Source: Megamerina dolium
Lineage: Eukaryota > Arthropoda > Insecta > Diptera > Megamerinidae
Direction: 5' to 3'
DNA: 64,000 nucleotides
Assembly: GCA_963854835.1 (NCBI GenBank)
Contig: OY978530.1
Span: 12,548,609-12,612,608, forward strand
Position numbers and translations under genes: made by a program. Shown in pieces: positions 7,564 through 61,171 of this stretch (positions within the stretch are counted from its first letter, which is position 1; each line of letters begins with the position of its first letter). The notes under the pieces are model-generated. The model was not told the DNA's origin. It ran no database searches and saw only the letters and a program-made list of their open reading frames with translations.

Positions 7564-8510
7564 CAGATAGCATTTCCAACGTTTTGGAGTATCTGGGCTG
7601 TACGATTAGCGACGTACGTTTTCCATGTGTGAGGTGGTTTTTCCAGCCATGCGAGAACGATTTGAGAATCGGACCAGAAAAATATGTCTGAGAATTCGAC
7701 ATCTAAAGTTTCTTTAACGGACTTTGTTAGATGCGAAAGTAAAACGGCGCCACACAATTCCAAACGTGGTAAGCTGACCGTCTGCAGAGGTGCAACTTTC
7801 CCTTTAGCCACCAGTAAATGACAGGATATTTGATTATTCATATCCATTGATCGTATGTACAGGGCTGCACAATAAACTTTCTCTGAAGCGTCACAAAATC
7901 CATGAAGCCGGATTCGCTTCTTGGGAGAGAATTGTACCCATCGAGGGATTTCGATGAGACCAATGGACGAAATATTCTCCAGAAATACATTCCATTTGAT
8001 GAGCGATCTGGGTTTCACGCATTCATACCATTCGGTGCCTTCTAACCAGAGCTCTTGGAGAAGCAGCTTGGCTTGAGTCATGATGGGCGAGAGCCATCCT
8101 GCCGGGTCAAAAAGTTTCGCAACGGCAAATAAAATTTGACGCTTGTTAGCAGGGGATGTTGTTTCGATGGGTGATACTGAGTACGAGAATGTGTCAGTCA
8201 ATGCATTCCATCGTATTCCAAGGGTTTTCGTGGCACTGGCACTTTCAAATTTTAGAAAATCAGAATCGATAAGTTCTGATTTTGGGATGTTTTCTAAAAT
8301 TTTAGGATGATTTGCAGTACTTTTATCTACTACTGATTCTACTGCATCTGGAATTGTATGAGAACCAGATAATACGTCATCCACATAGGTTTCTTTGAAG
8401 ATTATTTTTTCCACGAGAGGGAAATTCTTCTTGGAATCCTTTGCCAATTGTTGCAGTGTTCTAATGGCTAAAGATGGAGCGCAATTTACACCAAATGTGA
8501 CTATCTTCAA
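7410..8510 (-). pseudogene. pol: BEL/Pao RT (palm/thumb) and RNase H (element C)
   Basis: Contains the RT catalytic box as ETYVDDVLSGS near 8380, the connection segment (FDPAGWLSPIMTQAK) and RNase H with RLHGFCDASEKVYCAALY, SLPRLELCGAVLL and FWSDSQIVLAWL. It is in the same frame as the upstream ORF at 8520-10241 and is separated from it by one in-frame TAA at 8520-8522 within the RT domain, so a single nonsense change has cut the polyprotein. The 3' end overlaps the integrase frame with a frameshift between 7410 and 7563. Confidence 0.88.
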
Positions 8511-8519
8511 CCGGAAGTC

Positions 8520-10241
8520 TTAAATTGGAGAATTTGGTGACTTGCGAAAGAGAATTCGCTGGAAATCCTGGTCGTCATGGTGGACAAGAATTTGTCGGTA
8601 CATCTTTTGTACATCACCATTGAAAACGAATTGATATAGTCGCCACCTCAGGATGAGAACCATGAGATCTGGTTGTAATGTGGGACCAATATGTAATACG
8701 TCGTTAAGAGAATGGCCTGAGCCGCTGCTTCTTGAGGCATTAAAAACAACACGCACTTTGGTGGTTTTCCTTTCTGGCCTCACCACTGCATGATGTGGCA
8801 GGTAAAAGGAGAAATGCTTGCCATCAGAGATAATTTCATGCGAGCCTGTGGGTTCCATATGATCCAGCGTGAGGTATTCTTCGAGAACCTCATCGTAAAT
8901 GGCTTTGAGATCGCCTTTCTTTGAAAAATTTTTCTCCATACTGCGAAATTGATTATAGGCTATGGTTCGGGAGTGACCAAGAGCCGTAAGAGCGGGAAAA
9001 CTGGATTTAAATGGAAGCCTGACCACATATCTTCCATCTGACCTACGAGATGAGGTCCTCTGATAGTAGTCTTCACAGGCTATATCTTCTTCCGATACTT
9101 GAGCTGGCTGATTGACTTCTTCCTGTTCCCAAAACTTCCTTAGTTGAGAACTAAGAAGTTCATTGGAAACTTCCTCTACCTGTGTCGAGAATCTTGACAC
9201 TTTTTGAGAGATAGGGCCACTAATTATCCAGCCAAATATCGTATTCTGTGCGAGAAGGCTTCCACAGATATTATGGCGGATTCCGGTTAGGAGGATTTGA
9301 GGAATCAAATCACTACCTATGACCATGTCAATTTGCGCCTGCACGAAGCAATTCGGGTCAGCCAAATCTAACATTTCGAATTGCTGCCAATCGAGCTTAG
9401 AAATTTTAAATGTGGGTAGAAATTTGGTCAATTGTGAGAGTACAATTGCCCGTGTTTGTAACTTTATATTAGCCTTTGGGGCGACTAACGTAACGGTACA
9501 AGTCTGGTTAGAGTTTTGGATGGTTTTACCACCCATTCCAGAAACTTCGACGTGAGTTGCTTGCGAAGGAAGCCTCAGCCGATTTTGTACCTTCGTAGAG
9601 ATGAATGTTCGTTGAGAACCTTGGTCGATGAGTGCTCGAACCTTGTGAAGTTCTCCAAGATGCTCTATAGAGACAAGAGCTGTGGGCAAAAGAGTTCTTT
9701 CTTCATTTGAGGTGAACAATGCTTGCACCTTTGAAGAAGATTTGGAGCATGATAAGCAGGGTTGCTCATCTTCGGATGATCGGTCCTGAGATCTCCGGTT
9801 TCTCGAGTTTCTTGAGGGGGTTATCGTCTGCTGGCTGCTCTTTTTCTTATTGTGCGGCTGAAGCGTGGAAGTTTGCGCCAAAACCATGGCGTTCCTACTG
9901 GGAATATTGTCTGCTGGTATGTGAAGTATCGTGTGATGCTTTCGCTGACATTGCAAACAGGAATGTTTGCTCTTGCAGTCCCGTTTATGGTGAGTGAAGG
10001 CCAAGCAGTTCTCACAGAGATTGTGTTCTCGAACTATCCTCACTCTATCACGAACAACTAACTTTTTAAACCGCTCACAGGAATTAAGCGAATGTGCGGC
10101 TTCGCAGATTGGACAAGAGAATGTCCGATTGCTTTCTGCAAAAAAGTTTTGGGTTTTGTTCTGGGGTCTGTTTTGTGGAAATCCTGGTATATTTGGCTTG
10201 ACGCTGTTGTAACAAGTTAGTACTGCGGCTCGTACTTGCAT
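8520..10241 (-). pseudogene. pol: BEL/Pao gag C-term, protease and RT N-terminus (element C)
   Basis: A long open frame. From its start: a Cys/His knuckle pair (CPICEAAHSLNSCERF; then CENCLAFTHHKRDC and CLQCQRKHH), a BEL-type aspartic protease core with ALIDQGSQRTFIS, then the RT fingers with LPHHAVVRPERKTTKVRVVF and LQPDLMVLILRWR. Polyprotein processing and cDNA synthesis are the expected roles. The matrix/capsid half of Gag is absent: upstream sequence from about 10242 looks like a LINE leader instead. The frame stops at a nonsense codon inside RT. Methionine at 10241 is not the true start. Confidence 0.85.
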
Positions 10242-17835: not shown

Positions 17836-18048
17836 CGTTTTTATGCTTTCCAGCGTAGTCTCTGGCCAATTGTACCCATTTCGACGATTTTTAAAAATAA
17901 TTCAAATAAAAAAAATATTTACATAAGGCTACATTATGAAATTTGAAGAAGTTACAATATTACTTTTAGACTAAAGTTACAAAATTCGATTTTAACATTA
18001 TTATAACCAAAAGAAAAGTAATGAAATTACATTTCTTTTAATATATAT

Positions 18049-18483
18049 TGTCACGTGTATCGATAGTTGGTTACTCATCACTATTGTGACTGACACTATT
18101 GGCAGCATCGAAACGAATGTCAACAAAAAGAAATAAGCGATAACCAGAACAAGCCAACGAGAAAGGAAGAGAAGAATCTCGATAAAGGAAGATTCTGGGG
18201 TGTTGCCAACAGAGTATGAATAGAGCCAGTGTTGAGAAGTGAGAATCAATTTGATCCCGAACGTGATTGCAGAAACATTGATACAGAGGCAAAAGTTGCA
18301 AATACATTTAAGTGTTATTGTAAATAGTTGATTATAAGCAGAGATGATTGTACATAGATATTATTAAATAAGTTGTTGCTGTATATAGTTGTATAAAATA
18401 AGTGTTGCAGTCATTAGTAACAGAATCCAGTGATCGAACAAGGTAATTCAAATAGAATTAAACGCTCACAAAATAAAAACGTA
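18049..18483 (+). mobile_element. 5' LTR of Gag-integrase element, copy 1
   Basis: Starts TGTCACGTGTATCGATAG, matching TGTAACGAGTATCGATAG of the LTRs at 25408, 41268 and 61172, and ends at AAAACGTA where a LINE is inserted. ATAT at 18045-18048 matches ATAT at 25846-25849 after the 3' LTR, the 4-bp target duplication. Its TATA box reads TATGAATA (18215-18222), whereas the three other LTR copies have TATAAATA, so this promoter may be weakened. Confidence 0.88.
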
Positions 18484-18498
18484 GGTTAGGTTAGGTTA
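18484..18498 (-). repeat. TAACC-type tail of the LOA-like LINE
   Basis: Plus-strand GTTAGGTTAGGTTA. On the LINE strand this is a short TAACC tandem forming the 3' end. It resembles the insect telomere repeat TTAGG but is only three units at a LINE end. Confidence 0.75.
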
Positions 18499-18656
18499 TG
18501 CGACCGCCCCCCAAAGGGGGTCGCACTTACGCCAAATAATTGGCCCATTATGTCATCATGCATCGTTGTGCTTACCATCCTATCTCCTCTGTTAAGCGGA
18601 ACCATTGGGATTTCCTAATGAATAGAGCAATGTCCCTGACATCCATGGGTGCAAGC

Positions 18657-19124
18657 TCAGTGGTATCTGTAAAAAAAGGCACTCCCTAGTAGAGTGTGCC
18701 TTCTGCGTGCCAAGGCGGGGCATCTACAGAGGAAGTGGTGAACACTTTCCTCCTCTTCCTCGTCCTGGCAACTGCGACAAAAATCGTTGGCCGGTAAGCC
18801 GAGCCTTGCAGCATGCCTACCCACAAGCCAGTGGCCCGTGAGTACGGCGACTACATTACTGATGGTTTTCCGGCCCATTGATAACAGTGAACGGGTTCGT
18901 CTATTGTCAAGGATTGGCCAGATTTTCCTAGTGGTAGCACAAGAGCTCTCATCCCGCCATCTTCTGTTGGCTATGGTGAGATAATGTTGTCTGATCTGTG
19001 CACAATTGTACCGATTGAACTCCAGTTTCGTTGACAATACCCCTCTTCCATTCTTCCCTTGAGGGTATATGGGTTGAGAACCTATTGTCAAAGCATGGTA
19101 TGGGGATGGTATAGTCGATGTCAT
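18657..19124 (-). pseudogene. LOA-like LINE ORF2 C-terminus with CCHC knuckle
   Basis: Encodes TISNVVAVLTGHWLVGRHAA and CRSCQDEEEEESVHHFLCRC, the linker and zinc knuckle that follow RNase H in I/LOA-group LINEs. Before it stands STKLEFNRYNCAQIRQHY. The RNase H catalytic core that should precede (a TDGS-type start and a DSQAA-type box) is not found between this block and the RT frame ending at 19180, a gap too short to hold it. The copy therefore appears to have lost its RNase H core. Confidence 0.7.
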
Positions 19125-19179
19125 TCGGAATCGTAGTTCACTCCCCCAGGATCCTTGAATGCCCGTATCCTGGTTGAGC

Positions 19180-20870
19180 TTAGCGTGAAGCTATGTTTAG
19201 CCTAATTGCTGATATCAGAGCTCTCTGCCTGCCAAATAAATCTACGGGGAGTAGATGCAGTAGCGAGTAGAGCGCTTTTGACGGGGTGGTTCTTAGAGCG
19301 CCTCTTGTCAACACCGCAGACGTCCTTTGAACCTTATCTATTTGTCGTCTGTGTACCTCCTTGTTTAAGAATTCCCACCAGACTATCACACCGTAAAAAA
19401 GAATGGGTCTCACGACCGCAAAGTATAGCCATGATACGATTGTAGGACTCATCCCCCATCTTTTACCTATGGCTTTCTTACAGGAATAGGGTGCTGAAGT
19501 TGCTTTACGAACCCTTTCCATCGTGTTTGGTTTCCAACTTAGTTTCCTATCTAAAGTTATACACAAGTATTTCGCCTGTTCAGTTAGCTTTAGACTAGTT
19601 CTCCCAATTCTAGGTAAGGTAGAAATAGGTATTTTATGCTTTCTAGCAAAGAGGACTAGCTCAGTTTTGGCAGGGTTGATGGCCAGACCAGAGTTTGAAG
19701 CCCATTTGGACAGGATTGATAAGGCCTGGTTCATCACTTCGGTGAGTGTATTTAAATATTTTCCCGATGCCACAAGTGCCACGTCATCTGCATAAGCCAC
19801 CGCTTTGCATCCCGTGGACTGTAAAGATATGAGAACTTCATTGATGGTTAAGTTCCATAAAAGAGGCGAGAGCACACCCTCTTGAGGGGTGCCCTTAATC
19901 GCAAATCTGCTAATGCATGAGGTACCCAATTTTGAGTTTATCACTCTTTGCTTTAGCAACAGACTAATGAATCTAATAATAGGTTCATCTACCTTAAGCA
20001 TAGCAAGAGAGTTTTCGACTGCTTCTGGGTTTATGTTATTGAAGGCCCCTTCAATATCTAGAAAGGTGACCAAGCTATATTCTTTGCAGTGCAAAGATGT
20101 TTCGATCTTCTACACAAGTGAGTGAAGGGCTGTCTCAACGGACTTGCCTTTGTTATATGGGTGTTGCAATGAAGAGATATACATACTTAGTATCTATAGA
20201 GTCCCTTAAGTACACATCAGGTAGTCTTTCAAGGGTTTTTAATAAGAAGGATGATAGACTTATAGGTCTGAAATCACTTGGCTTGGAGTGGGACATTTTT
20301 CCGCCTTTAGGGATAAACACCACGTTAACTTGTAGCCATGTCCTGGGGACATAGCATAGCCTTAGGCATCCAGAGAAGATTACCTCCAACCAAGGTGTTA
20401 GAAGGTCCGCACACTTCTGCATGTCCGCAGGTATCATACCATCAGGTCCTGGTGACTTGAATGGTTTAAAATTATTAATCGCCCAATTAATCTTTGTTTA
20501 CTGATTATTTTGTGCGGGACGTCGTAGATAATTCTACTAGGATTAACATTGGGAGTTCGGCCAGGGCTGTCCTCCAAACAGCCTGGAAAGTGGGTCTCAA
20601 TTAGTACCCGAAGAGTTTCTAGACTTGAAGTGGTCCAATCACCATCCCCCTTCATAATGCAGCTGGGTGTAACTGGATTCGTTGCGAGAATCTTTCGTAG
20701 ACGGCTTGCCTCTGAAATTTCTTCTATGTTACTGCAAAGTCATTCCATGATGATCTTTTTGCTCTCCTAATCGCCTTTTTAAACACTCGTAGGCTCTCCT
20801 TATAGGGTTGCCATTGATGAGTGATTTTGGCTCGGTTGAATTGCTGTCGATACTCCTTCCTTAGAGTGAT
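19180..20870 (-). pseudogene. LOA-like LINE reverse transcriptase
   Basis: RT over frames 20434-20655, 20153-20437 and 19180-20094. Seen: SPGPDGMIPADMQKCADLLT, KPSDFRPISLSSFLLKTLER, SLVTFLDIEGAFNNI, GTPQEGVLSPLLWNLTINE, the catalytic VAYADDVALVA, the thumb AINPAKTELVLFARKHKIP and the region VRPILFYGVIVWWEFLNK. The usual GTPQGG box reads PQEG. It has at least two frame breaks (near 20100-20150 and 20660-20720), so it is inactive, but the catalytic residues survive. Function in a live copy: target-primed reverse transcription. Confidence 0.85.
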
Positions 20871-20875
20871 GATCT

Positions 20876-21760
20876 CTACAGACCACCACGGAGGTCCTTC
20901 TTTTTTGGAGTCCTTCTGATTGGACAGGACGCTACAGTAGCTTTCCTGCAAGCTTCTGTAATTTGATCAACAGCGGCCTCAAGGTGCTCCTCATTTTGCA
21001 GGCTTGAGGGCGCCTGAGTGAGAGATTTATTCAGGGTGGCCCTATACTTGTCCCAATTTGTGCGTTTCCTATTTGAAAATGGTATCTGCTTTTGTGGCCT
21101 TATATCAAGGCGGAAGCTAATATACCTATGATCCGAGAAAGAGTGTTCTTTGTCAACCCTCCATTCCCTAACTAGACAGTCCGAAGAGTCATTTGTAAGG
21201 GTTATATCTAAAACCTCCTCCCTGTTGCAGGTAATAAAGGTCGGTTCTGTACCCATATTTGCGAGAGTCAAGTTAGAACTAATAAAATATTCAAAAAGTG
21301 ACTCACCTCGTTCGTTGTTATCTGAGCTGCCCCAGATATAATGGTGTGCGTTGGCATCGGCTCCCATCACCAGATTCGCCTCACATTTCTCCGCCTCCCG
21401 AACTGCCTTCCTTATTATAGGGTGAGGTGGGGGCTCAGTGTGGTCGTGAGCCATGTACGCAGACATCAGCCAATATATATGGGATTGATGATCTAGCGCA
21501 ATGGTCACAGTATCCTTGTCGCTGTAATCAGAGAGTAGGAATGCTTTGTAGCATTTCTTCACTAAAATACATGATCGAGGCTTATCTGCGTTTTGAGCAT
21601 AGTAGAGTCCATAATTTGCGGAGCTTAGTCCGCGCACCTTATCATCCAGGACCCACGGTTCCTGAATTAGAAAGATATCCTCCGCTTTATCGCTTAGCCG
21701 GAGAGCAGCGTTAGCTGCTTTACAGTGGTGCAAATTAATCTGAACCACCCTAAACATCAT
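20876..21760 (-). pseudogene. LOA-like LINE endonuclease
   Basis: N-terminal part of ORF2: RVVQINLHHCKAANAALRLS, FLIQEPWVLDDKVRGL, the metal/DNA contacts NLVMGADANAHHYIWGSSDN and the catalytic histidine region HSFSDHRYISF. Length and order are normal for the apurinic endonuclease of this group. Its frame leaves the RT frame at an A-rich run near 20900, which is a probable one-base frameshift. In a live element this domain nicks the target DNA. Confidence 0.85.
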
Positions 21761-22315
21761 CCTTTGCAGAGTTTGATATAGACGCCTCGGTCACCGTCGT
21801 TTCGGTGTCCTCGACGTCACAGCTTAATAATTCGTCCTCATCCGCTGTGCTAACTTCCACATCTCGGAAGAGGTCGCCAACTATCTCAGACGTTGACAGC
21901 GTATCGCTGTCCCCGTCACACGACATGTCCTCAATCGGGGCCGAACTTACTTTCGTATCCCCTGGTTTTGGATCTACTTTTCCTGCGTATTTTTCATAGA
22001 CTTTCAGTGTGATTTGGGAGAAGCCATAGCTTATCACCCCCTTCTGTTTAGCGAGAGGTGCCAAGGATTGCTCATTTAAGATCACAACGACCTGTCTTGA
22101 GCTCTCCTTGGCCTCTCCCACCTTCACAACCCTCCAATCATGTGTGGGAAGGGATGGATTTGCGAGCCGCATATGATCCAAGATTTCCTTAGGATCTGAC
22201 GGCTCTGCTTGGGACGAGTCCCTGTGGTGTCCGATTTGGACGTGGGCCTACCCCCCAGGGGAGGCCTTTTGGGGTTTTCGGAATAGTCCGAGGCAATTTT
22301 TGTTTTGTTTTCCAT
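21750..22315 (-). pseudogene. LOA-like LINE ORF1
   Basis: Two overlapping frames. 22124-22315 is a basic N-terminus (KRPPLGGRPTSKS) and 21750-22181 has LANPSLPTHDWRVVKV and KGVISYGFSQITLKVYEKY, a pattern of the DUF4780-type domain I associate with LOA-clade ORF1 proteins, followed by an acidic tail. It overlaps the ORF2 start by about 10 bases. A frameshift near 22150 splits it. Confidence 0.65.
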
Positions 22316-22609
22316 ATTTCATATACGACCGCTTACCCGACGTATCAGGCATCGCGGTCTAATCATTTAGGAGGGATTTGGAGGTCGGCCGGAGCAGAGT
22401 CCTATACTACGGAAAGTCCACAGTTACTCCCTGAGGCGGACAGGTATCAGAGAGGCTCCGTTAAAATACAGCCAGCAAAGTCCCCCGGCTGCAAACTAAC
22501 CAGTGGGCACGGAAACGCCTAAGACCCTGGATTGGGGGAAGGATTTTACCGACTCCCAGGTCTAGATCCGTAGTGTTCTGTTGATTGGCAGGGTCACCTC
22601 AAGCAGGAT
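22316..22609 (-). mobile_element. LOA-like LINE 5' leader
   Basis: GC-rich noncoding leader between ORF1 and the resumption of the host gypsy element. Contains the block shared with 10451-10505. The exact 5' edge is uncertain, near 22590-22609. Confidence 0.6.
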
Positions 22610-22633
22610 GTGACAGAGTCACGCACTGTAAAG

Positions 22634-25396
22634 ATGGTGAAAATTGACCAACTAAAAGTGGACCAACTTATAAAGCTGTTGGTAGAGATGAATCTATCGT
22701 CATCAGGTGCAAAGGCGGAACTGCTGGTGAGGTTGAGGCAAGCTATGGAGGCTAAGGGAATTAATGTAGAAGAACATGAGTTCTTTGAGGAAACCGATAT
22801 ACAAGCAGTTGTGCACGCTGAGGAAGAGAGCAAAATAGATTCGAGTGGTCAACTCATGGAATTCATGAAAACCATGATGCAACAGCAGCAACAACAGCTA
22901 CAAGAAAATGCGTCTCGCATTGACTCCAAGTTTCAAGAACATTCGGATGAATTGCGTATGGAAATTCAAGAAGTTTCGGCTCCACAAGAACACGTCATCG
23001 AAAATCTACAAAAAGGAATTATGCTTAGATTTCAGGAAATTTCCGGAACTATTAATGAAAAAGTCATGGATCTGAAGGAACATGTAGATGACTTGGAAGA
23101 TAAGTTCGAGAAATTACAGCACGAACTCAATCAACTAAAAATAAATGGACCAGCCACATCAGTGATTCGAGATTCAAGCACAATCAAACTAAAGCCACCA
23201 ACATTTGACGGAAGCACGCCATTCAACATCTTCAAGCTTCAATTCGAGACAACAGCTTCGAAGAATCAATGGGATGACAGCGACAAGACTGCTGCTTTAA
23301 TAGTCGCATTAAAAGGTAATGCTTCCGAGGTGTTACAGATGGTTCCAGAGAAAGATCGTGGTAGCTATCAGTCACTGATGAATACACTCCAGCGGAAATA
23401 TGGAAATGAATACAAGAGTCAGTTACATCGAGTGGAGTTAAGATCGCGAGTGCAACGGAGTAATGAGAGCTTGCATGAATTCGCTTCTGACATTGAGCGC
23501 TTATGTCATCTTGCATTCTCTGGTAATTCGGAAGAGTTCGTCGAAAAAATCAAAATAGAGGCTTTCATAGATGGCATAGTCATGTCACCAAGGAATACTT
23601 ATGCCGAAACAGTCAGTAGTGCCTTGACGTTTGAAGCCGCCAGTTTGATGTGTCGACCAATACCACGGGTACGCCAACTAGAAACAGAAACAGCAGATCT
23701 GGTTGAAGCAGTGCGTCAGGCAGTAAAATCAGTAGTTCAGCCTGAAGCAAGAGCAGGTCGACGCGAAAACAAATTTAATGGTAAGTGCTTCATTTGCGAC
23801 AAACGAGGGCATATAGCGCGTGATTGCAATCAATCGAGTATGAAGCCTAAAGAAAGAACAGGGAATCAACACAAAAATAAATTTGCCGGTAAGTGCTTCA
23901 AATGCGATCAAAGAGGACACATGGCGCGTAATTGTCGTCATCGTGGTAAGACTGATACTCCATATCATCGTACTTGCACCGTAGATAGCAAACATTGCTC
24001 TCGGGTAGGAAGCCAGAATCACATTGTTAACCTACGACTTACGAATGTATTATCGGAAGAGTCATGGACCACCGAACGAGTTCAAGAAGATCAACGGAAC
24101 GACCCAGATCTCTCAAAGATCATGAAATACAAGGAGCAGGGCATACGTCCAGATTGGCAAGAGATGGCTAATGAGAGTCCAATAGCAAAGGCATATTGGG
24201 CGCAGTGGCAAAGCTTGCACTTACGAGACGGATGTTTATTCAGAGCATGGGAAAGTGAAGATGGAAAAATCACTAATTATCTTCTAGTGGTACCCAAGGC
24301 AAGAATAAATGAAGTGATAGCTGAGTATCACAATGCCTCCAGTGGGGGGCATTTGGGAATCACCAAAACCGTCGAGAAAATAAAGAAACGATTTTATTGG
24401 GTTGGATGTCATGACCATGTCGCTGATTGGATTCGGAAGTGTAAGCAATGTGCAATGGCCAAAGGTCCCACTAAGAAAAGTCGAGGTAAGATGCACCAAT
24501 ACACCGTGGGTGCTCCATTTGAGCGAATTGCTATGGACATAGCTGGGCCATTTCCAATAAGCAACGCAGGAAACAAGTATGTTCTGGTGGTTATAGATTA
24601 CTTCAGTAAATGGCCTGAAGTATACCCCATTCCAAATCAGGAAGCTAGTACAGTTGCGGATGTATTCGTCAACCAATGGGTTACTCGTTTTGGTGTACCG
24701 ATGGAGTTACACTCAGACCAAGGTCGACATTTCGAATCAGTTGTATTCCAAGAGATATGCCGTATGCTGGGTATATACAAAACTCGTACAACACCTTTGC
24801 ATCCACAATCTGATGGCATGGTAGAACGATTTAACCGTACCTTGGAGGAATATTTGAGAAAAGTCGTAGATAAATACCAAAGAGAATGGGATGTACATAT
24901 ACCAATGTTTCTCATGGCATATAGATGCGCACAACATGATACGACGGCTACTACACCGGCAATGGCAATTTTTGGAAACGATTTAAGACTGCCAGCTGAT
25001 TTAAAATTTGGAGTCGTAACACCAACGAGATCAACCGAAGGTAATTATACTAACGAAAAGCGGGAACAGTTGGATGAAGTACATCGGTTCATCAGAGAGC
25101 GGTCGCAGATGATAAGCGATAAGATGAAGGCCAGGTATGACTTGAAAGCAAATTCAAAAGGGTTCTATGAAGGAGAGCTTGTAATGCTTCATAATCCACA
25201 AATAAAGAAAGGCCTGTCCCCTAAACTACAAACTCATTGGGAAGGACCATATGAGATTATAGCAAAGACAAATGACGTAGTGTATCGTATTCAACGTGCC
25301 TGGAATAAAAGAGCAAAGTTTAAAGTAGTGCACTTGGAGCGACTTGCACCATATCGGGGGGAATTACAAAAACTTGTTCGGGACGAACAAGGTTAA
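22634..25396 (+). CDS. Gag-integrase fusion protein of a PR/RT-less gypsy element
   Basis: An uninterrupted frame of about 920 residues. I chose ATG 22634 because the same start follows the primer site in the copy at 61631. Domains: a SAP-like helix pair at 1-40 (LKVDQLIKLLVEMNLSSSG), a Q-run and coiled coil at about 80-170, a capsid-type domain at about 190-300, two knuckles CFICDKRGHIARDC (about 384) and CFKCDQRGHMARNC (about 421), an HHCC region ending CKQC (about 605), integrase residues D635 (AMDIAGP), D695 (HSDQGRHF) and E731 (GMVERFN) with DD35E spacing, and a GPY module (HWEGPYEI, about 869). Protease, RT and RNase H are absent; the knuckles pass straight to the post-RNase H segment (TCTVDSKHCSRV). 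A 27-bp in-frame deletion sits near 23577 relative to copy 2. All catalytic integrase residues are kept. Confidence 0.9.
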   Translation: MVKIDQLKVDQLIKLLVEMNLSSSGAKAELLVRLRQAMEAKGINVEEHEFFEETDIQAVVHAEEESKIDSSGQLMEFMKTMMQQQQQQLQENASRIDSKFQEHSDELRMEIQEVSAPQEHVIENLQKGIMLRFQEISGTINEKVMDLKEHVDDLEDKFEKLQHELNQLKINGPATSVIRDSSTIKLKPPTFDGSTPFNIFKLQFETTASKNQWDDSDKTAALIVALKGNASEVLQMVPEKDRGSYQSLMNTLQRKYGNEYKSQLHRVELRSRVQRSNESLHEFASDIERLCHLAFSGNSEEFVEKIKIEAFIDGIVMSPRNTYAETVSSALTFEAASLMCRPIPRVRQLETETADLVEAVRQAVKSVVQPEARAGRRENKFNGKCFICDKRGHIARDCNQSSMKPKERTGNQHKNKFAGKCFKCDQRGHMARNCRHRGKTDTPYHRTCTVDSKHCSRVGSQNHIVNLRLTNVLSEESWTTERVQEDQRNDPDLSKIMKYKEQGIRPDWQEMANESPIAKAYWAQWQSLHLRDGCLFRAWESEDGKITNYLLVVPKARINEVIAEYHNASSGGHLGITKTVEKIKKRFYWVGCHDHVADWIRKCKQCAMAKGPTKKSRGKMHQYTVGAPFERIAMDIAGPFPISNAGNKYVLVVIDYFSKWPEVYPIPNQEASTVADVFVNQWVTRFGVPMELHSDQGRHFESVVFQEICRMLGIYKTRTTPLHPQSDGMVERFNRTLEEYLRKVVDKYQREWDVHIPMFLMAYRCAQHDTTATTPAMAIFGNDLRLPADLKFGVVTPTRSTEGNYTNEKREQLDEVHRFIRERSQMISDKMKARYDLKANSKGFYEGELVMLHNPQIKKGLSPKLQTHWEGPYEIIAKTNDVVYRIQRAWNKRAKFKVVHLERLAPYRGELQKLVRDEQG

Positions 25397-25407: not shown

Positions 25408-25845
25408 TGTAACGAGTATCGATAGTTGGTTACTCATCACTTTTGTGACTGACACTATTGGCAGCATCGAAAAGAATGTGAACAAAAAGATATAAGCGAT
25501 AACCAGAACAAGCCAACGAGAAAGGAAGAGAAGAATCTCGATAAAAGAAGATTCTGTGGTGTTGCCAACAGAGTATAAATAGAGCCAGTGTTGAAAAGTG
25601 AGAATCAATTTGATCCCGAACGTGGTTGCAGAAACATTGATACAGAGGCAAAAGTTGCAAATACATTTAAGTGTTATTGTAAATAGTTGATTATAAGCAG
25701 AGATGATTGTACATAGAGATTATTAAATAAGTTGTTGCTGTATATAGTTGTATAAAATAAGTGTTGCAGTCATTATTAACAGAATCCAGTGATCGAACAA
25801 GGTAATTCAAATAGAATTAAACGCTCACAAAATAAAAACGTAACA
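25408..25845 (+). mobile_element. 3' LTR of Gag-integrase element, copy 1
   Basis: TGTAACGAG to CGTAACA, 438 bp, followed by ATAT. TATA box TATAAATA at 25574-25581. Very similar to the 5' LTR at 18049 with a scatter of substitutions and the TATA difference. Confidence 0.92.
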
Positions 25846-26052
25846 ATATTTAAAATTAAAAATTTTTTACAAATTTTTAATAAACATTAACTTTATTAAA
25901 TTTGCTGCAGCTACGGTTACCTTTAGGAATTGCATTTTTCTAGTATCTTCGCTATTTAAATAATTTGTTTAAAAAGGTTGTTGTTATGGATGCAACCATT
26001 TATATCCAATCTGGAAAATATAAGAAATAAATCAGTTCTACAATGAAATATA

Positions 26053-27703
26053 CAGTGGCTCCCAGCTTATTTCGTACAGTGACAGTTTAAAAATTGCTGC
26101 AGTCGTAATTCCTAATATTGCAAAAATTTGAACAAAATATAAATGCCATTTTTGAAAGGAAGGTTTGTTTTTTATTTTCCAATATTTACTTTTTCAAAAT
26201 TTTAGTGTTTGACACTATAAAAAAATAAAATAAGAATAAAATAGGAAAATTCATGTCACAGCTTATTTCGTACAGTCTCTTTAAGTTCAAACTAAAAACA
26301 AAGTAAGTTGATTTTAATATTTAGTATGACATCCCTTAGCGTTAATGATAGCCTGGAGTCTATTTGGCATTGAATCCACCAATTTTTGAGTGATGTCTGG
26401 TGTGATTTTTTTCCATTCCTCCATCAGTACCTTCTTTAGGTCTTGCTTATTAGAAATCTTGTGTGTTCTTATTTTATTGTCCAAAATAGACCAAAGATTT
26501 TCAATCACATTCATGTCAGGTGACTGTGGTGGTGGAGACATCAAGTGTGGGCAGTTCCAAATAAGCCAAGATTGCACAATTCCAGATTTATGTTTTGGGT
26601 CATTATCTTGGTAGTACCGAAATTCTTCCCGCAAATCCAGTTTGTCTGCACTTTGAAGTAAATTGTTTTTCAGAATCTCGAGGTACTTCATTTTGTCCAT
26701 TGTTTCCTCAATAAAAACCAATTCACCTACTCCGGCTGCTGACATACAGGCCCAAACCATCACGCTACCGCCACCATGCTTCACTGTGGGCTTAAGGTTC
26801 TCCTTGTTTAGCTCGGTATTCGCTTTACGCCAAACATATGACATTCCGTCCGAGCCAAAAATATTAAACTTAGACTCATCCGCGAAAATAACGGTATTCC
26901 AGAACGCAGGAGTATTAATAATATGCTCTTTGGCGAAGTCAAGTCGGCGTTGTATATTCATTTTCGAAATGAATGGTTTCTTTCGGGCTACTCGACCGTT
27001 CAAGTCATGATTGCGCAGCACACGTCGGACAGTTTCAGCACTGGATGATTTTCCTATTTCACGCTGAACCTCTGCAGCCAACTTCGGAGCGGATAACTTT
27101 GGATTTTTCTTAATTTTTCGTACAATTAACGCTCGTCTGAAGCGTTGAAAATCTTATTAGGTGCTTCTCTGCCCTTGTTCTCCAACCGATTTTCGCGAAC
27201 GAAGCGTTGAATGATGTATTGGACAGTTGAGGCACTTAAATTTGTCATTTCAGCAATTTTTCGCACACTCTGACCTTTCCTAAAATGGTTAATTACCAGT
27301 TTACGCTGTTCCATCGTTGTACGACGACCCATAACACTAAATGTTTAATTTACAGCACTTTAACTATTTAAAATAAGAATAATAAAAATTGTTATAATAG
27401 TTAAAAAGGTCCAAAAACTCATACAATTCAAAAAAACTTTGTAACTGCGCGGCAGAATGAAACTTACTTACATTGAAGTTTGTGTACGAAATAAGATGTG
27501 AGCTGAAAATCAGCTGATCAATAGTTTTTCTCTCTTGCATGACAAAAAGAACAATTTTTGGGGTTCCCCGTTTTCTTATTAGGTTTACTAAACACATACA
27601 CAGACATCTACATTCAAAACTTATCGATAAGTTTTTTAGTTTCGATGTTACAGCCATGTACATAAAAATATATACACTGTACGAAATAAGCTGTGAGCCA
27701 CTG
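26053..27703 (-). mobile_element. Tc1-type DNA transposon, copy 1
   Basis: Flanked by TA at 26051-26052 and 27704-27705. Ends are inverted: CAGTGGCTCCCAGCTTATTT on the left and its near-complement on the right. A second copy of the core (CACAGCTTATTTCGTACAGT) lies about 200 bp inside each end (26257-26276 and 27482-27502), giving an IR/DR layout with two transposase-site repeats per end. The length, 1651 bp, equals that of copy 2. Confidence 0.93.
26314..27332 (-). pseudogene. Tc1-type transposase (copy 1), frameshifted
   Basis: Starts MGRRTTMEQRKLVINHF with a helix-turn-helix (SVRKIAEMTNLSASTVQYII), then the DDE core: IFADESKFNIF, YQDNDPKHKS and SPDMNVIENLWSILD, with DD34E spacing. Two bases are missing near 27122 relative to copy 2, so the DNA-binding part (27126-27332) and catalytic part (26314-27081) are in different frames. 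The catalytic half is uninterrupted and has all three acidic residues. Confidence 0.92.
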
Positions 27704-27705
27704 TA

Positions 27706-30700
27706 TGTTTTAAGTAATTGATAGTATTAGTATAAAAAATTGGTTGATTTAGACGTAATTAAGCGTATATTGGTACTCACGACATATATGAGGGAGTTTT
27801 ACGTCGGTGAACTTTCAACGTCAGTTGCACCTTGGTGGCAATGTTGTTGCAATTGGCGGTTGATGATAATGTGACTACGTGTGTGTGGATGTTGCTGCTT
27901 TATAAACAATAAGAAGATCGCAAATTTCAAAAACGTTATAATATTTACGCATTTTATATTTTTTCACCACACTTATATACAATATAATAATTTAATAGAA
28001 TTAATATGGAAATCAATAAAAGCATTTATGAATTATTAATAAGCTAGAGATTAGGGTTTATTTCTTGTGCCCATAATACTATGTTGAATATGCAAGTTAA
28101 TGAACACTGTAATTTTATAATGTTGACACCAGACCTGTAAAAGAATGGAATCATTACGGAATTCACTCACCCTTAATTCATTTAAAAGCTGCATCAACGA
28201 GACTTCACTCTTTTGCTTCGTATTCGTTAAAGAATGACAGACGAACCATTCATCATTCTCAAAAGCTTAAAATTATCACACTTTCCCATTCAGTAAAGAG
28301 TGGGACTTCAAAAATATCAATCCCATTTTTGCTAGGCTTAAAAATATGATGAATTCATTCAATATTATAATTCTTTTGAACTTTGAAATACTGGAAATAT
28401 GTTATTATTTACTACCAGCATAGCTGCTTTGGAACAAAACCCATAGTGTTATTATGGAGGTAGAGCAACTACAAAAAAATCCTATTGGCTGCGCGATATA
28501 ATGTCAGAAAATGGTTTCTTATAGTGTCAAGATAGTGTGTTTCTTGTTTCCTTTTCAACTTCTTCTTCTTCTTTTACCATGTGTTTTTTGTTGTTTTATT
28601 TACTTTTTCTCTTTCATTCATGAGAACTCTCCCCAATGGCTCTACCTTGTGTTATTATACCATGACAAAACCAATCAGCTGTTATTATTCACATAAATAA
28701 ACGAATTGTAGTTTATAAATTATTGGTTTTGAAATGTTTATAAGGTTGGTTGTTTGAGGTATTTAATTGGTTTGTTGCGTTGTTGCGGTTCTCACAATCA
28801 ATTAAATTTTCAGTTTCTTTTGAACACATTCTTAATTTATCATTATACGTAAATATGCGTATATATATATGTAATATTCTTGAAGGAGGTCCAGGTACAA
28901 ACATGCTAGTCGTTATTGCTCAATTTATTAAAAAGATTACGAAAAAACAAACAAACAAATTTTATTACGAAATAAAACTTCTATAATTTTTTGCATTTAA
29001 TACTTTCTTTATATTTAATATAAGCCAATGACAACCCAGAAATGAAAGATCCAACAACCATACAGATATTTTGTAAACAACAAAACGCGAAGAAGAAGAA
29101 AGGCTATCAGCTTGCTACTGAATGGATATCGCCACTCCCATTCTTTTTAGGCTGCAGCCATCTGCTGCTGCATTCATCAAAATTTCAATTCTGTGTAAAT
29201 TCTTTAGGTTTTTCAATTCATGAATTGAAAACTATAGGACTTGTTCATTTTTATCAGCCTAAAGACTTCACATACTGAATGCTAGAAAAAAAAGGATTTC
29301 AGCTTTTCAAAATTTAAATAAAAGAATTAAAAGTGAAATTGACTTACACTTTTACAACTCTGGTTGACACATACAACACAACATTCCAGACCATAAATTT
29401 GTCAATTATGCTGACACCATATTCTCGGCACTGCAACAAAGACTACACTTCATTACAATTAATTTTTGGCGGATTTATGATGTGGTTCGATTCATAATTT
29501 TGACTGCAGTGAACCTGCTTACTGAAGCGCTTACCACCAGTTGCATTTTAACACAAAAGTTAAATATATTTAAAGCACTACAATGCATGCAAGGTTAACA
29601 GATTATAACTAAATTATGTTCCATTTCAGTAAGAAACACTGCACTTTCACTTTTCTTTTTTTTTAACTTTCATATTCAACATAGATAGATGCAATATAAC
29701 AAAATCAAAATAAATTGCAAACAATTTACTTACTTCAGCTATTGGCTATATCCATAATTAACAATTGTATGGCTTGTATGGCATATGACGAATATGCTTG
29801 CTTTGTCTTTTTACATTAAATAAAATCATATAAAATTTTTGCCAACTTACCAATTTGAACGCTTTAATGTAAAATTTTCAGAAATTTAATGACAGTTCAA
29901 CATTTGTTCAGTCATTGTCAACATTATTTACCCTCTGGTTGACCACAAGATTTTGAATGTATATTTTTTAATTTTTGAAAGCAAAACAAGGTCCTTTAAA
30001 CAAATTTTTGATCATTTTAATTATAGTAACAATTAACTAAAGATTTATAAGTTAGTGCAATCACGATGAAATTAATACTAATCGAAAAGAAAAAATACAC
30101 AAATGCATTTTAAAGTTTGACTCTCATACATAACCAAGGGGTTAATGTGTGAAAAAATTTTCGAATTTATCACATTTGCAGATTTCATAAAGCAAGAATG
30201 AAAGCTCAAACTATTTTGTCAATTAATGTCATGTTGTTTCATTCGCACTCATTATATAAAAAAAGAAAGCAATAAAAAATATCCCATAAATATGCATTAG
30301 TATTTGTATTCAGAGAAAAAAATTTAAGATTGTATGGAATTTTATGAGAAGTGGTTACTTGTATTCTATAATTTATTTCTACAATATTTTGTTGAAATTA
30401 TAATATTAATATTTTTAAATAACAATAATCTAGTTATTATCTAGTATTATTATTATTATTATTATATTACTAATTTCTAATATTTGAATTCCTCTTTCAT
30501 GAATTTGTTAACTATCTTAGTATGTAATAAGTTGAACCGTTAGATCAGTAATGTTATTTCTATTTCTCTTTATGCTTTGTACTTATGAAATTGCAAATTA
30601 AATTTAATATAATAAATCAGTACTATTGATGGCAACGAAATGGATCACATCGATTCGTACTTAATTAAAATTCATTTAATTAAATTATAGAACCATTGGC
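27706..30700. other. 3-kb anonymous AT-rich DNA
   Basis: No coding or element signature recognised in any frame; only short open frames. It contains a perfect 22-bp palindrome at 29210-29231, a TTA run near 30448-30468 and a CTTCTT run near 28558. Either single-copy intergenic DNA or very old decayed elements. Confidence 0.6.
29210..29231. repeat. Perfect 22-bp palindrome
   Basis: TTTTCAATTCA followed by its exact complement, no spacer. Could be chance in AT-rich DNA. Confidence 0.8.
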
Positions 30701-36249: not shown

Positions 36250-37467
36250 ATGAGTATTGAGGAGCTGAGCATAGATCAGCTAACCGAAGAACTAAGCAGC
36301 TGGCAATTAAGATTAGGCGACAACGAACAGGACGAAACCAAACAAAACATAATGGACGCTGGCGGAGTACGAGCGCTCCTCACGACAGCAATAGAAGTAG
36401 CTACAGAACAAACAAGAAAGGACTTTCAAGTTACTGTTGATGACTTAACTAACAGACTGAGACTTTTAGAAACACCCACTCGGGTCGAACCTTATAAACC
36501 AATCACGATAATTCAAAATGTGGACTGTAGTGAGTCCCTTGACATTGTTAAATCCATTCCAGAGTTTAACGGTGATCCCTCAAGATACGTTTCGTGGCGA
36601 CAAGCCGCCACAACTGCTCACAAACTTTTCGAAAAATATGAAGGCAGCTCACGTTATTATCAAGCAGTTGCTATCATGCGAAATAGAATTGTAGGTGCAG
36701 CTGACACTGTCTTGAGCTCATATAATACAGTCCTTAATTTTAAAGCGATCATCGCTCGGCTAGATTTCTCTTATGGAGATAAACGCTCAATTTTCACACT
36801 GGAGCAGGAGCTTTCTACTCTCAAGCAGGGAACAAGATCAATCGTGAGTTTCTATGATGAAGTAGAACAAAAACTCACATTGACAGTCAATAAGGTAATT
36901 ATGACAAACGAAGGAAACCAGATGTTGATAGAATCTCTGAACCAGAAATACAGACAAGATGCCCTTCGGGTATTCATATCTGGGCTCAGACGACCCCATT
37001 GTGACATTCTGTTCTCATGCAGGCCTTCAGATATGCCTTCTGCCCTTGCGCTAGCTCAAGAATTGGAATCGAACCAAATAAGGTATAATTTCGCAACTAC
37101 CTATTGGAACCAGTCGCCAAGGCAAAACCCCGTATTAAATTCTCCACACTATAACCATCAATCTAATGTTTCTCCACAACGTGCATTTGGCCAAAACGGC
37201 CCGCGTCCAGCAAATAATTTCGGACAACACCAAAGGTCATTGAATAGGCTCGGTCAGCCCCAAGGACCAGCAAATAGTTTTGGTCAACACCTAAGACCAG
37301 TAAACAACTTTGGTCAAACCCAAAGGCCAATCAACAATTTTAGTCAATTCCAAGGACCAACAAATAATTTTGGACAACCTGAAAAACCTCATTATCAGGC
37401 CAGACCTGAACCAATGGACGTTGATCGCAGCTTAAGAAGCATACAGCAAGAATTATTTAGGCAATAG
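36250..37467 (+). pseudogene. gag: Errantivirus-like Gag
   Basis: ATG 36250 opens a 405-residue frame. Contains the capsid-like segment PEFNGDPSRYVSWRQAA, RLDFSYGDKRSIFTLEQEL, and a C-terminal run of NNFGQ/QRP repeats (about residues 305-380). No CCHC knuckle, which is normal for this group. The frame stops at TAG 37465-37467, yet the same frame remains open to about 37683 and includes a slippery site at 37641, so the stop is probably a nonsense mutation that removes the true C-terminus. Gag would form the particle. Confidence 0.82.
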
Positions 37468-37640
37468 GCTCAGGGTACTAAGAGACCTTTAGAATCACTG
37501 AGGCAGAATCCACCTAAATTCCAAAGATTGAATCACCTAAATCAAGAAGAGCAGTACTCCCAAGAAGAACAGAATTCAGGATCATATGATGAGATCACAA
37601 CTGATGAAACTGGTGAAACAGTTGGACAAGACGAGATAAA

Positions 37641-37647
37641 TTTTTTA
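37641..37647 (+). promoter_or_regulatory. Candidate -1 frameshift site
   Basis: TTTTTTA in the form T TTT TTA of the Gag frame. A slip back by one base enters the frame that encodes the protease (LLIDTGASKNYI at 37704), which is open from 37641 onward. Same heptamer type as HIV-1. Confidence 0.65.
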
Positions 37648-37703
37648 GAGGAACATCCCTCCTCTCATACGTCGAGAGATATATTGGGGGAAAATTAATT
37701 AAG

Positions 37704-38387
37704 TTGTTAATAGATACCGGTGCATCAAAGAATTACATAAAAAATTTAGAAGTCTTAAAATCAATAAAACCTGTCAGGAAACCATTTTTTGTCAAATCAG
37801 TCCATGGAAATTCAGTAATAAATTCAAAATGTTGTATTAACCTTTTTAATAAAAACGCGTGTTTCTTTATCTTACCTGAACTAGAAACTTTCGAAGGCAT
37901 AATTGGCCTTGATTTCTTAAACGAAATCAATGCTCAGATTAACTTGAAGAAAGGGGTTTTAGTACATAACAATGGAATGGAGATTTTAAAGTACTTTTAT
38001 TGTAAGGAGGTTAATAACATTTTAATAGCCCACAAACACATCCGAAGTGCACCAACCTTAGAAAAAAATCTTAATGAACTTTTAGAAAACTATAAAGCCG
38101 TTTTTGCCGATCCAGACGAAGCGCTGCCATACACCACAAATGTAGTAGCAACCATCAGAACTATAGATCAGGAACCGATATACTCAAAATCCTATCCTTA
38201 TCCACTCGCCTTATCCGAATTCGTTAACCAAGAAATTGCGGAACTACTCAAAAATAAAGTAATCAGGCCTTCCCGATCTCCTTATAACAATCCACTTTGG
38301 ATTGTGGATAAAAAGGGATTTGACGATCTCGGAAGACCGAAAAAAGATTTGTCACGGATTTCAGGAAACTCAACTCGAAAACAATAA
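37704..38387 (+). pseudogene. pol: Errantivirus-like protease and RT N-terminus
   Basis: Protease active site LLIDTGASKNYI at the start, flap region with GIIGLDFLNEI, then RT fingers YSKSYPYPLALSEFVNQEI and NPLWIVDKKGFDDLGRPKK. The frame breaks at about 38340 in an A-rich run, after which RT resumes in another frame with VTDFRKLNSKTISDKYPIP. The listed start is only the first in-frame TTG; the real entry is by frameshift from gag. Confidence 0.85.
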
Positions 38388-39841
38388 GTGACAAATACCC
38401 TATTCCAAACACTTCCGTCATTCTTTCAAACCTAGGCAAAGCAAAATACTTTACCACTATTGATCTTAAATCAGGCTTCCATCAAATTAACTTGGCAGAA
38501 AAAGACAGGGAAAAAACTGCGTTTAGCGTAAACAATGGAAAATATGAATTTTGTCTCCTTCCATTCGGATTAAAGAACGCCCCAAGTATTTTTCAACGGG
38601 CAATTGATGATGTTTTACGAGAAGAAATAGGGAGGAGTTGTCATGTTTATATTGACGACATTATAATCTTCTCCGATGCAGTAGATCAACATTTTAAGGA
38701 TATAGAGACAATTTTGCAGAAACTATACAAAGCGAATATGAGAGTATCACCCGAAAAATCTAAATTTTTCCAGGAGTCCGTAGAGTTTCTAGGATTTGTG
38801 GTATCCCAGAAAGGTATTAAAACATGTCCAGATAAAATCAGAGACATTGTAGAATATAAGGAACCTAGAACTCTGAGAAGCTTAAGGTCATTCTTACGAT
38901 TAGCAGGGTACTATAGAAGATTTGTTAAAGATTATGCTCAGATCACGAAACCACTTACGAAGTATTTGCGTGGAGAGAATGGACACATTGGTAGTAGATA
39001 TTCAAAAAATATTCCAGTGAACTTGGACAAAGAAGCGCTCGAAGCATTTATAAGAGTAAAGCAGATACTGTCCTCAGAAGATGTACTGTTATTACAGCCT
39101 GACTTCAGTAAACCTTTTGAGCTTACAACTGATGCCTCCTCAACAGCTTTGGGTGCTGTACTTTCTCAGGATAGTAGGCCTATAACTATGATTTCAAGAA
39201 CATTGTCACCCACAGAAGAGAATTATGCGACCAATGAGCGTGAATTATTGGCTATCGTTTGGGCCTTACAAAAATTGCGAAACTATCTGTATGGCGTAAA
39301 AAGCCTCCACATCTATACTGACCACCAACCACTTTCATTCTCAATATCCGAGAAAAATCCAAATACTAAAATTAGGCGATGGCGGGCTTTCATTGAGGAG
39401 TTCACTCCGAAATTCTTCTATAAACCCGGCAAAGATAATGTTGTCGCGGATGCATTATCCAGGCAATACGTTAATAATTTAGAGGACGACTTAGAATCCA
39501 TTAGCTCTGTAGGTGCAGATTTTGGATCGGATACCAGATCAGATACGGAAACTGCATCAGAAGGACAAAGTCAAGGACCAGGGGAATCTCAAAACTCAGA
39601 AATAGAAACCATTCATAGTGAAGAATCCCTTACGGAAATAATTAGGACAGTACAAAATCCTGTAAATTGTTTTAGGAATCAAATCATTCTAAATAAGACC
39701 AATACATCAGAACTCACAACCGAAACGGTATTCAAAAAACAGATCAGGCATTTAATAAACTTTAGCACCATTAACGAAATATACCCTCTTTTGAAAGATG
39801 CCGTGAACCCGCAAGTAATAAACTGCATTCACTGCGATTAG
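38388..39841 (+). pseudogene. pol: Errantivirus-like RT and RNase H
   Basis: RT palm FTTIDLKSGFHQINL, LLPFGLKNAPSIFQRAID, catalytic HVYIDDIIIFSDAV, thumb KSKFFQESVEFLGFVVS. RNase H: ELTTDASSTALGAVLSQ, NERELLAIVWALQKLRN, IYTDHQPLSF and PGKDNVVADALSRQ. All catalytic residues look intact over 450 codons. The frame stops at TAG 39839-39841, just before integrase, leaving the HHCC start in other frames. Confidence 0.88.
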
Positions 39842-40839
39842 CACACCCTAGGACAAATTCAAAACGGAGTTGTCAAACGCTTCCCTTCGGCTAAATTCCG
39901 CCATTCGGAAAAGATTGTAATAGACATACATAATCCTAACGATCAGTCCGAGATCTTATCAGTGAACATAACCGAGCACACAGAAACATCCAAGAAAATA
40001 GAAATCAAATTCTTGAATATTACTACTTTCCAAAAATGTCAAGGAAATTAAAAGAGATTGCCCTTAACTGTAGAACATGCAAAGAAGCGAAATATGACAG
40101 ACACCCCACAAAGAATCAGATTGGCAAGACACCAATCCCAGCTCACCCTGGACAGATCATCCATTTGGACATATTTTCTACTGACAGGGTCCATTTCATT
40201 ACTTGTATCGATAAATTTTCAAAATATGCCCTTACTTTCCCCATAGAGTCGCGATCCATAGTAGACATAAAAATACCAATGTTACAAATCATGAATTTCT
40301 TCCCGAATGCCGAAACAATAGTGTGTGATAACGAAAAATTCTTCAATTCGGAAACCGTAAAATCCTTGCTAAGAAACAATTTCGGAGTATCTTTATTTAC
40401 CGTGCCCCCAGCACACAGCACTAGTAACGGTCAAGTAGAAAGACTACATAGCACACTTGGCGAAATAGCTAGATGTTTAAAGAATGAGGGACAAATCTCA
40501 TACACCAAAGACCTTGTTCTCATCGGTACCTCTAAGTATAATAACACTATCCATTCAGTAACAAATTGCAGACCCGTAGATATAATCCACTCTCTTCCAG
40601 AAGAAAAAAAGGAATACATTATAAAAAAACTGACCGAGATTCAAGAAAAGGACCTTCAGTATCATAATAAGGATAGGCATATAAGAACATTCAAACCCGG
40701 AGATATCGTGTATGTCAAAACTAATAAGCGTATAGGAAATAAGTTCAGCAATCTGTTTGTTAAGAAAATGGTGCAAAAAGATATGGGGAATTCAGTACAA
40801 ATTGATAGCAGACTAGTCCACAAGGATAATATTAGGTAG
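39842..40839 (+). pseudogene. pol: Errantivirus-like integrase
   Basis: Open from about 40036 with MSRKLKEIALNCRTCKEAKY (C-C half of the zinc region); the H-H half is missing upstream. Core: HLDIFSTDRVHFI (first D), IVCDNEKFFNS (second D), GQVERLHSTL (E). C-terminal FKPGDIVYVKTN and a DSRLVHKDNIR end. Stop TAG at 40837-40839. Disrupted at the N-terminus, otherwise well kept. Confidence 0.85.
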
Positions 40840-43920: not shown

Positions 43921-44330
43921 TGTTACTTTTCTATCTTGTGAACTTTTAGTTCTACTCGAATCAACCCTGTTCGATCACTGGATTCTGTCAATAATAATTG
44001 CAACAGTTATTTTGTACTAACTATATGCCACAACTATTTATTTAATTTATTTACTATTAATTTACAATCACATTTTAATGAACTTTCTCCCTTACTCTCC
44101 ATCGTATGATGTTGCCTCACTCACTTTCGGAATTCGCCCTATTTATACTCTGTGGCAACACTCCAGAATGTTTGTTTATCGTAATCGAGTTTTTTTCTTT
44201 CTTTCTTGTTGGATATTTCTAGTTATAGTTGTTTGTTGACGTTCGTTTCGATGCTACCGTTATTCGTGGTATTCACAAATAAAGGTGAAATTAGTGAAAT
44301 CAGCTGGCAGTCTGAACTAGTTTCCTAAAA
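43921..44330 (-). mobile_element. Diverged LTR of the Gag-integrase family
   Basis: Reverse orientation: starts TGTTACTTTTCTATCTTGTGA and contains CTGTTCGATCACTGGATTCTG, the complement of the LTR 3' region, and TTTCGATGCTACCG near the other end. Clearly older than the other LTR copies; the high-coordinate edge is approximate. Confidence 0.72.
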
Positions 44331-44340
44331 TTGCCATTTA

Positions 44341-61160: not shown

Positions 61161-61171
61161 ATTTTTTATAT

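Follow-up and report, generated by a model that had tools for sequence, protein, structure and literature searches.

Plant TR-GAG elements are long terminal repeat (LTR) elements reduced to Gag, with no integrase (INT). Wheat has both Gag-only and Gag-protease partners (PMC9744471, PMC11302176; here and below, published systems are described as far as the available portions of the papers go), and the wheat elements RLG_Sabrina_SA and RLG_WHAM are semi-autonomous gypsy elements that carry Gag and protease and, in the portion available, no integrase (PMC9744471). Both are high-copy elements with part of the coding set and without reverse transcriptase (RT), thought to be moved by a full-length partner with a common primer site and LTR ends (PMC9744471), and in these respects they resemble the elements described here. 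The present analysis concerns a 64,000-nt stretch of the genome of the fly Megamerina dolium (contig OY978530.1, C6:12548609-12612608 in our coordinates; hereafter the window), in which two copies of an LTR retrotransposon, A and B, encode a Gag-integrase fusion. Comparison with the genome (500.5 Mb searched, 8 contigs) suggests that these copies probably represent a semi-autonomous Ty3/gypsy-type subfamily, whose Gag-integrase polyprotein would rely on protease (PR), RT and RNase H (RH) borrowed from a 6-kb full-length relative in shared particles.

The Gag-integrase frame of copies A and B

The original prediction, made from the letters of the window, described two copies that pass from zinc knuckles straight to integrase without protease, RT or RNase H, and Pfam searches of both open reading frames (ORFs) bear this out. 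The plus-strand ORF of copy A (22634-25396; 920 codons from the ATG at 22634, or 928 when counted from a GTG, spanning 22610-25396) contains, in order, SAP, Retrotrans_gag, two zf-CCHC stretches, Integrase_H2C2, rve and Integrase_p58_C; the Pfam search found no protease, RT or RNase H family in either ORF A or ORF B. The first zinc knuckle lies at 23780-23830 and the second at 23888-23941, the latter being the unit to which the only knuckle of the full-length relative aligns, while the integrase occupies 24290-25351 (H2C2 24290-24463, rve core 24515-24805 and p58_C 25244-25351 by Pfam), all on the plus strand. The acidic triad of the integrase is retained, as had been claimed, in the form of D643, D703 and E739 of protein P0001, which we take to be the catalytic residues of the D,D(35)E integrase motif. 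Copy B, at a distance of 39 kb, carries its plus-strand fusion ORF at 61631-64000 and continues beyond the window end; its Pfam domains are those of ORF A minus p58_C, which falls past that end. The whole copy B locus (L009) contains a 949-codon stop-to-stop frame between two LTRs, with the 3' LTR at L009:6062-6499, and the reported intact frame is found in both copies.

Copy A is an LTR retrotransposon and is longer than was first stated, since it comprises a 5' LTR (18049-18483, plus strand), a long interspersed nuclear element (LINE) of ~4.1 kb, the gag-INT frame and a 3' LTR (25408-25845, plus strand). The final three bases of the 5' LTR were lost at the LINE insertion, and the primer-binding site (PBS) of this copy has been replaced by the nested LINE. 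ATAT target-site duplicates, read from the sequence, stand on the left at 18045-18048 and on the right at 25846-25849. In copy B the 5' LTR (61172-61601, plus strand; ATAT just before it at 61168-61171) is followed by the PBS (61604-61621, plus strand; TGGTGTCAGAAGTGGGAT), and the leader is 98.2% identical to that of the full-length relative L029.

The fusion junction of the two copies (23942-23953 in copy A, plus strand) is, as noted originally, common to both, but this exact form is not that of the family: a 33-nt pattern across it has 2 matches in the genome (≤3 mismatches), both within the window, and most relatives have an extra 63 nt (21 codons) here and still lack RT. The A/B junction is therefore a later 63-nt in-frame deletion private to copies A and B. 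Segmental duplication, which had been named as a possible source of the two loci, was rejected, as none of four comparisons of ~300-bp flanks rose above the best of 20 shuffles.

Abundance and mobility of the fused form

Of 1,341 candidate places for a 401-nt query spanning the junction, 40 were scored. A fusion marker has 678 matches in the genome (≤3 mismatches; reversed control 0), and an integrase-side block marker placed 45 nt deeper into INT has 696. Four of four sampled loci from the one-mismatch group of the fusion marker (L059-L062) were Gag-integrase fusions; this result and the similarity of the two counts (696 and 678) led us to reject the group as RT-bearing donors of the diverged block around the fusion, and no donor family for the block was found, the INT-side marker count being close to the number of fusions. 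Hundreds of further copies carrying the fusion likewise eliminate an assembly collapse of two copies. Gag-integrase elements without RT thus do form a multi-copy family, and a full-length relative that could lend RT exists in the same genome (see below), so the proposal that the deletion preceded amplification is upheld. Among 30 translated junction rows, 24 run from gag to INT without RT between them (two of these are the same locus, copy B, and the reading covers a part of the 678 marker places) and 6 are RNase H-INT boundaries of full-length relatives. A marker for the full-length form has 1,537 matches (control 0), so that in the comparison of copy numbers that had been proposed the fused form accounts for ~31% of marker places (678 of 2,215).

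The family has LTRs of the form TGTAACG...GTAACA, with a PBS and a polypurine tract (PPT) that could be read directly, which identifies it as an LTR retrotransposon; these features and the hundreds of marker places set it apart from Ginger elements and domesticated GIN genes. Clean LTR ends were present in 9 of the 16 copies examined, and all 9 are flanked by ATAT on both sides. The LTR pairs of L022, L026, L027 and L028 differ by 0.7-1.0%, a sign of recent activity, and in L022 and L027 the two LTRs of the copy are closer to each other than to any other LTR compared. LTR pair divergence reaches 6.7% in copy B and 12.9% in L024; some copies are old or mosaic. Fusion markers are evenly spaced, at ~3.35 and ~3.44 kb, at C1:47040863-47047559 and C3:24600199-24612156, which suggests tandem arrays of fused elements sharing LTRs; such an arrangement is also seen in L023.

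A full-length partner and the lost frameshift

Searching a protein database with the fused protein returned ordinary pols only, at ≤35% identity over a third of the query. One such pol, P0016, searched against the genome, led to the partner (39 places scored of 10,832 candidates). An uninterrupted pol frame of exactly 1,201 codons is present in 22 of these 39 places and frames of 1,571-2,023 aa in 7; two of these 7, L034 and L035, were read in part, and both keep the gag stop and frameshift site. The full-length relative L029 spans 5,986 bp, is flanked by ATAT and has an LTR pair differing at 1 of 440 sites. It provides the relatives with PR, RT and RH that had been called for: PR and RT lie in the first piece of its pol and RH, then INT, in the second. 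The order RT-RNase H-integrase in the family pol (L029, with pol searched as two pieces) is that of Ty3/gypsy.

The two forms are closely related. Compared with copy A, L029 is 95.7% identical over 1,443 nt of INT and 87.7% over 608 columns of gag, its 5' LTR is 93.4% identical to that of copy B, and INT identity between full-length and fused copies is 95-96% over up to 1,443 nt. Both forms have like LTRs, an identical primer site and the ATAT target site in common, and low LTR divergence in both (one full-length LTR pair compared), together with shared polymorphisms, indicates concurrent activity. The fused element is itself non-autonomous because RT is not encoded; it keeps partial coding capacity and has its LTR ends and primer site in common with those of an autonomous element, as expected of a semi-autonomous one. 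The suggestion that it borrows RT has gained a relative in the same genome able to lend it. A second gypsy element in the window (36250-40839) was considered for this role and rejected, since neither its gag nor its pol is related in sequence (INT match 25% over 191 residues) and the family LTR next to it is a solo LTR.

In the full-length element a single zinc knuckle and the end of gag are followed by pol in the -1 frame. The sequence GTTAAAC followed by TAA or TAG stands at the gag stop in all five boundaries read, and the site sequence is present in four further loci (L015, L016, L019 and L023); an 11-bp hairpin begins six bases past it. Such a heptamer followed by a hairpin is the textbook arrangement for -1 frameshifting, and GTTAAAC is the predicted -1 frameshift site. 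Folding predicts two hairpins here; a 58-nt fold reaches z = -3.06 (matched by 1 of 200 shuffles) but a 106-nt fold only z = -1.21 (25 of 200). By eye, the hairpin loop GCGGGGCG and a downstream GCCCC form a candidate pseudoknot. In the fused form part of the gag tail past the knuckle is retained; the sequence then skips to the residues immediately preceding INT, so that the frameshift site, PR and RT are gone together with most of RNase H. The knuckle unit is doubled in most fused copies, and the downstream unit is the one that aligns with the full-length knuckle; L016 and L025 apparently have one knuckle. The fused family has thus lost the frameshift by which integrase is normally held at low levels compared with Gag.

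Recombination between the two forms

Fused and full-length copies were compared over INT (23 fused and 17 full-length regions; L012 and L013 set aside, and the partial window copy of B dropped as a duplicate of L009) and over gag (31 fused and 8 full-length, after removal of one duplicate and two unclassified rows). On the INT side, 30 fixed differences (90% rule) fall in the first 180 nt and none in the next 1,260 nt, where 14 polymorphisms are common to both forms; gag has just 4 fixed differences, all in its last 30 nt, and 23 common polymorphisms. Among the copies compared, fixed differences are confined to ~330 bp around the fusion, a haplotype block at 23804-24133 (plus strand) in copy A. 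Between the forms, synonymous divergence (dS) is 0.37 and nonsynonymous divergence (dN) 0.17 over INT codons 0-50, and over codons 70-480 dS is 0.052, no higher than among fused copies (0.055). Association with the fusion, as mean r2, is 0.87 over the first 180 nt (35 single-nucleotide polymorphisms, SNPs), 0.28 at 180-300 nt (6 SNPs) and 0.067 beyond 300 nt (35 SNPs; shuffled labels 0.03). For INT nt 241-1440, a single clade of 22 fused copies is rejected by 57.7 log units (p-AU 0.019).

Because the differences are confined to ~330 bp and polymorphisms are shared elsewhere, the fusion is, in these alignments, a diverged haplotype inside a recombining family. The block is highly diverged and its flanks show near-zero divergence, which suggests that the fusion arose long before the present copies. 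The mixing is most simply read as the result of RT switching template between co-packaged RNAs of the two forms; gene conversion among copies already inserted may also be a source. The haplotype pattern as a whole is best explained by co-packaging and mobilisation in trans. L012 and L013, which are near-identical fused copies 8.2 kb apart, have an intermediate junction, and their INT side turns full-length-like within ~30-60 codons of it, making them a candidate recombinant near the block edge.

A further step, which we put forward tentatively and at somewhat less than even chances, is that the fusion is a long-lived structural allele: a supergene-like block of ~330 bp, comprising the duplicated knuckle, the loss of the frameshift and the fused INT, would be kept by selection while its flanks are continually exchanged with full-length copies, with a division of labour in the particles of the one family. 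If this were true, the fused form would have no need of frameshifting to make Gag and INT, and PR-RT-RH would come from the full form.

Selection on the fused frame

In INT, variants found only in fused copies (defined against 17 full-length INTs, so that some such alleles may be common to both forms) have a nonsynonymous to synonymous (N/S) ratio of 0.88 when they are singletons (154 N, 47 S, 14 stops) and of 0.31 when they are shared (21 N, 18 S, 1 stop; p = 0.005 versus singletons). Because shared variants are poorer in amino-acid changes than singletons, the lineages that multiplied kept INT coding, and INT is under purifying selection in them. The same test gives a weaker result in gag, with p = 0.039 for all variants. 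On the INT side of the block, codons 30-60 differ from full-length copies with dN 0.087 and dS 0.355 (dN/dS near 0.25, in a comparison without outgroup), versus dN 0.264 and dS 0.343 in codons 0-30, which hold the RNase H remnant and linker; by these dN values, INT proper was constrained while the linker drifted.

These results bear on the possibility that the fused element is a pure passenger, for which nothing but RNA signals (LTR, primer site, packaging signal and PPT) would count, the ORF being a relic that recency and recombination with full-length copies have left readable. The internal sequence of Ty1 and Ty3 is indeed dispensable when proteins are given in trans (PMC4974528), and outside the block the Gag and INT of the fused copies are nearly one pool with those of full-length copies. 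The idea that the fused frame has been kept open holds for copies A and B but not for most of the fused copies examined: among 20 fused copies with the gag start in hand, chosen like all copies in these integrity counts by similarity to the window junction, the ORF is uninterrupted in only 4 (copy A, L009, L022 and L027) and interrupted in 16, and the INT part is open in 7 of 25. A passenger is nevertheless unlikely. It does not account for the contrast between shared and singleton fused-only INT variants, nor for the low dN/dS of codons 30-60, which lie in the non-recombining block. A readable junction of 205 nt is kept in 19 of the 36 places scanned, the shorter forms of 142, 166 and 190 nt retain phase without stops, and ~2.8 kb of coding sequence has remained untrimmed, unlike in TRIM or LARD elements.

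A model for mobilisation by a full-length helper

The sequences show that the frameshift site was deleted together with PR-RT-RH and that Gag and INT are fused in frame, and on this basis we propose a model for the movement of the element. Fused and full-length RNAs would be co-packaged, with RT switching template between both, and the polyprotein would be cleaved by the helper PR. The fused product would enter the particle as Gag and INT at 1:1, bypassing rare frameshifting, and the duplicated zinc knuckle and shorter genome may favour packaging and copying. We infer that the fused element supplies its own coat and integrase. We place a working form of the fusion protein ahead of passenger or interfering forms on two grounds, the signal of selection in fused-only variants and the retention of frame across the junction.

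Several observations weigh against a working Gag-integrase protein mobilised by a full-length helper. The interrupted majority of fused copies is one of them, and the gag test restricted to fused-only variants is not significant (p = 0.13). The integrity of INT can be partly replenished by recombination with full-length copies and, as the two forms recombine outside the ~330 bp, INT integrity alone is no proof of a working fusion protein. Block diversity is underestimated, given that fused copies were picked by similarity to window positions 23800-24200, which contain the block. The fused copies also cluster partly on the tree (8 changes versus a shuffled mean of 13.9), and the mean r2 of 0.067 beyond 300 nt is still above all 300 label shuffles; mixing of the two forms is strong, not complete. 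Finally, the two LTRs of a copy are not always mutually closest (copy B, 6.7% apart), which points to mosaic copies; nor is the copy's own LTR pair the closest among the LTRs compared in L026 and L028, two elements that are nearly copies of one another.

An interfering element, whose Gag-INT product would poison or throttle full-length particles as truncated Gag limits copy number, has a precedent in the truncated Ty1 Gag p22/p18, which restricts Ty1 (PMC8458377), and INT-bearing Gag at 1:1 could disturb assembly; we regard it as very improbable, since the fused element itself reached hundreds of copies with LTRs and ATAT duplications and the full-length family is likewise abundant and young. 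Least probable by our estimate is a fusion that recurs by similar deletions without forming a subfamily, for although junction lengths vary and that of L012 and L013 is intermediate, repeated deletion would leave full-length-like sequence at the junctions, and instead the fused copies compared have a common diverged block carrying the 30 INT-side fixed differences from full-length copies, with closely matching genome counts for two markers at separate block points.

Other elements in the window

The LINE nested in copy A, a non-LTR retrotransposon, lies between the 5' LTR and gag on the minus strand (18484-22625, boundaries from comparison with copy B), with RT at 19180-20094 and endonuclease at 20876-21760 (Pfam RVT_1 and Exo_endo_phos_2). 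Its minus-strand RT, upstream of the copy A gag, was considered as part of the fused element and rejected, because it belongs to a nested LINE with endonuclease that is absent from copy B. At the LTR junction, the 3' end of the LINE bears a brief series of AGGTT units, which are CCTAA-like when read on the strand of the LINE.

The family of copies A and B is also present as a solo LTR at 41268-41796 (plus strand), with an internal duplication of its 3' part, the last 120 bp; it is bounded by TA repeats on both sides and adjoins the gypsy element at 36250-40839. The latter is an unrelated gypsy-like element with gag, protease-RT, RNase H and integrase split over several frames. On the minus strand, a fragment at 43921-44511 belongs to a more distant relative (INT piece 69% identical as protein, LTR-like pieces 78-83%), and a BEL/Pao-like element with Peptidase_A17, an aspartyl protease and an integrase zinc domain occupies 6547-10241 with broken frames. 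Inverted 1.67-kb copies at 26042-27708 and 54635-56302 are 98.5% identical, and the former encodes a Tc3-like transposase (HTH_Tnp_Tc3_2, DDE_3).

Comparison with known semi-autonomous elements

No Gag-integrase semi-autonomous LTR family was found in the open-access literature searched, mostly at the level of listings, which is no proof of absence from print. Because linkage decays so sharply at the fusion, genome sequence can serve to measure template switching between a helper and a defective element, and the decay offers a test of co-packaging without a laboratory system. It also bears on whether parasitic elements feed on their helpers or cooperate with them.

The partner of RLG_Sabrina_SA and RLG_WHAM, RLG_Wilma, shares hardly any sequence with them according to the available text (PMC9744471); here, by contrast, the element has INT joined to Gag, lacks protease, and recombines with a partner of its own family. 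RLG_Quinta and its partner RLG_Cereba, of which one is autonomous and the other not, have parts of the LTR, the termini and the primer site in common, and the defective member gives Gag (PMC11302176). The grass centromeric nonautonomous retrotransposons (for example CR2-Sb-B) recombine with autonomous members, and co-packaging with template switching has been proposed for them; they differ in that RT and integrase are absent or truncated, with no intact Gag-INT fusion seen in the available part of that paper (PMC4079200). Internally deleted mini-Ty1 and mini-Ty3 elements move with proteins in trans, but they are laboratory constructs without coding function, whereas the family described here is natural and retains Gag and INT (PMC4974528). 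BARE-2 of barley is likewise a family member in want of one function, which its relatives supply, with the opposite division, as its gag is disrupted and its pol intact (PMC9744471). As far as the available portions of these papers go, deleted retrotransposons in the compared literature keep Gag, Gag-protease or nothing, and the combination of Gag and integrase is another way of splitting the coding set.

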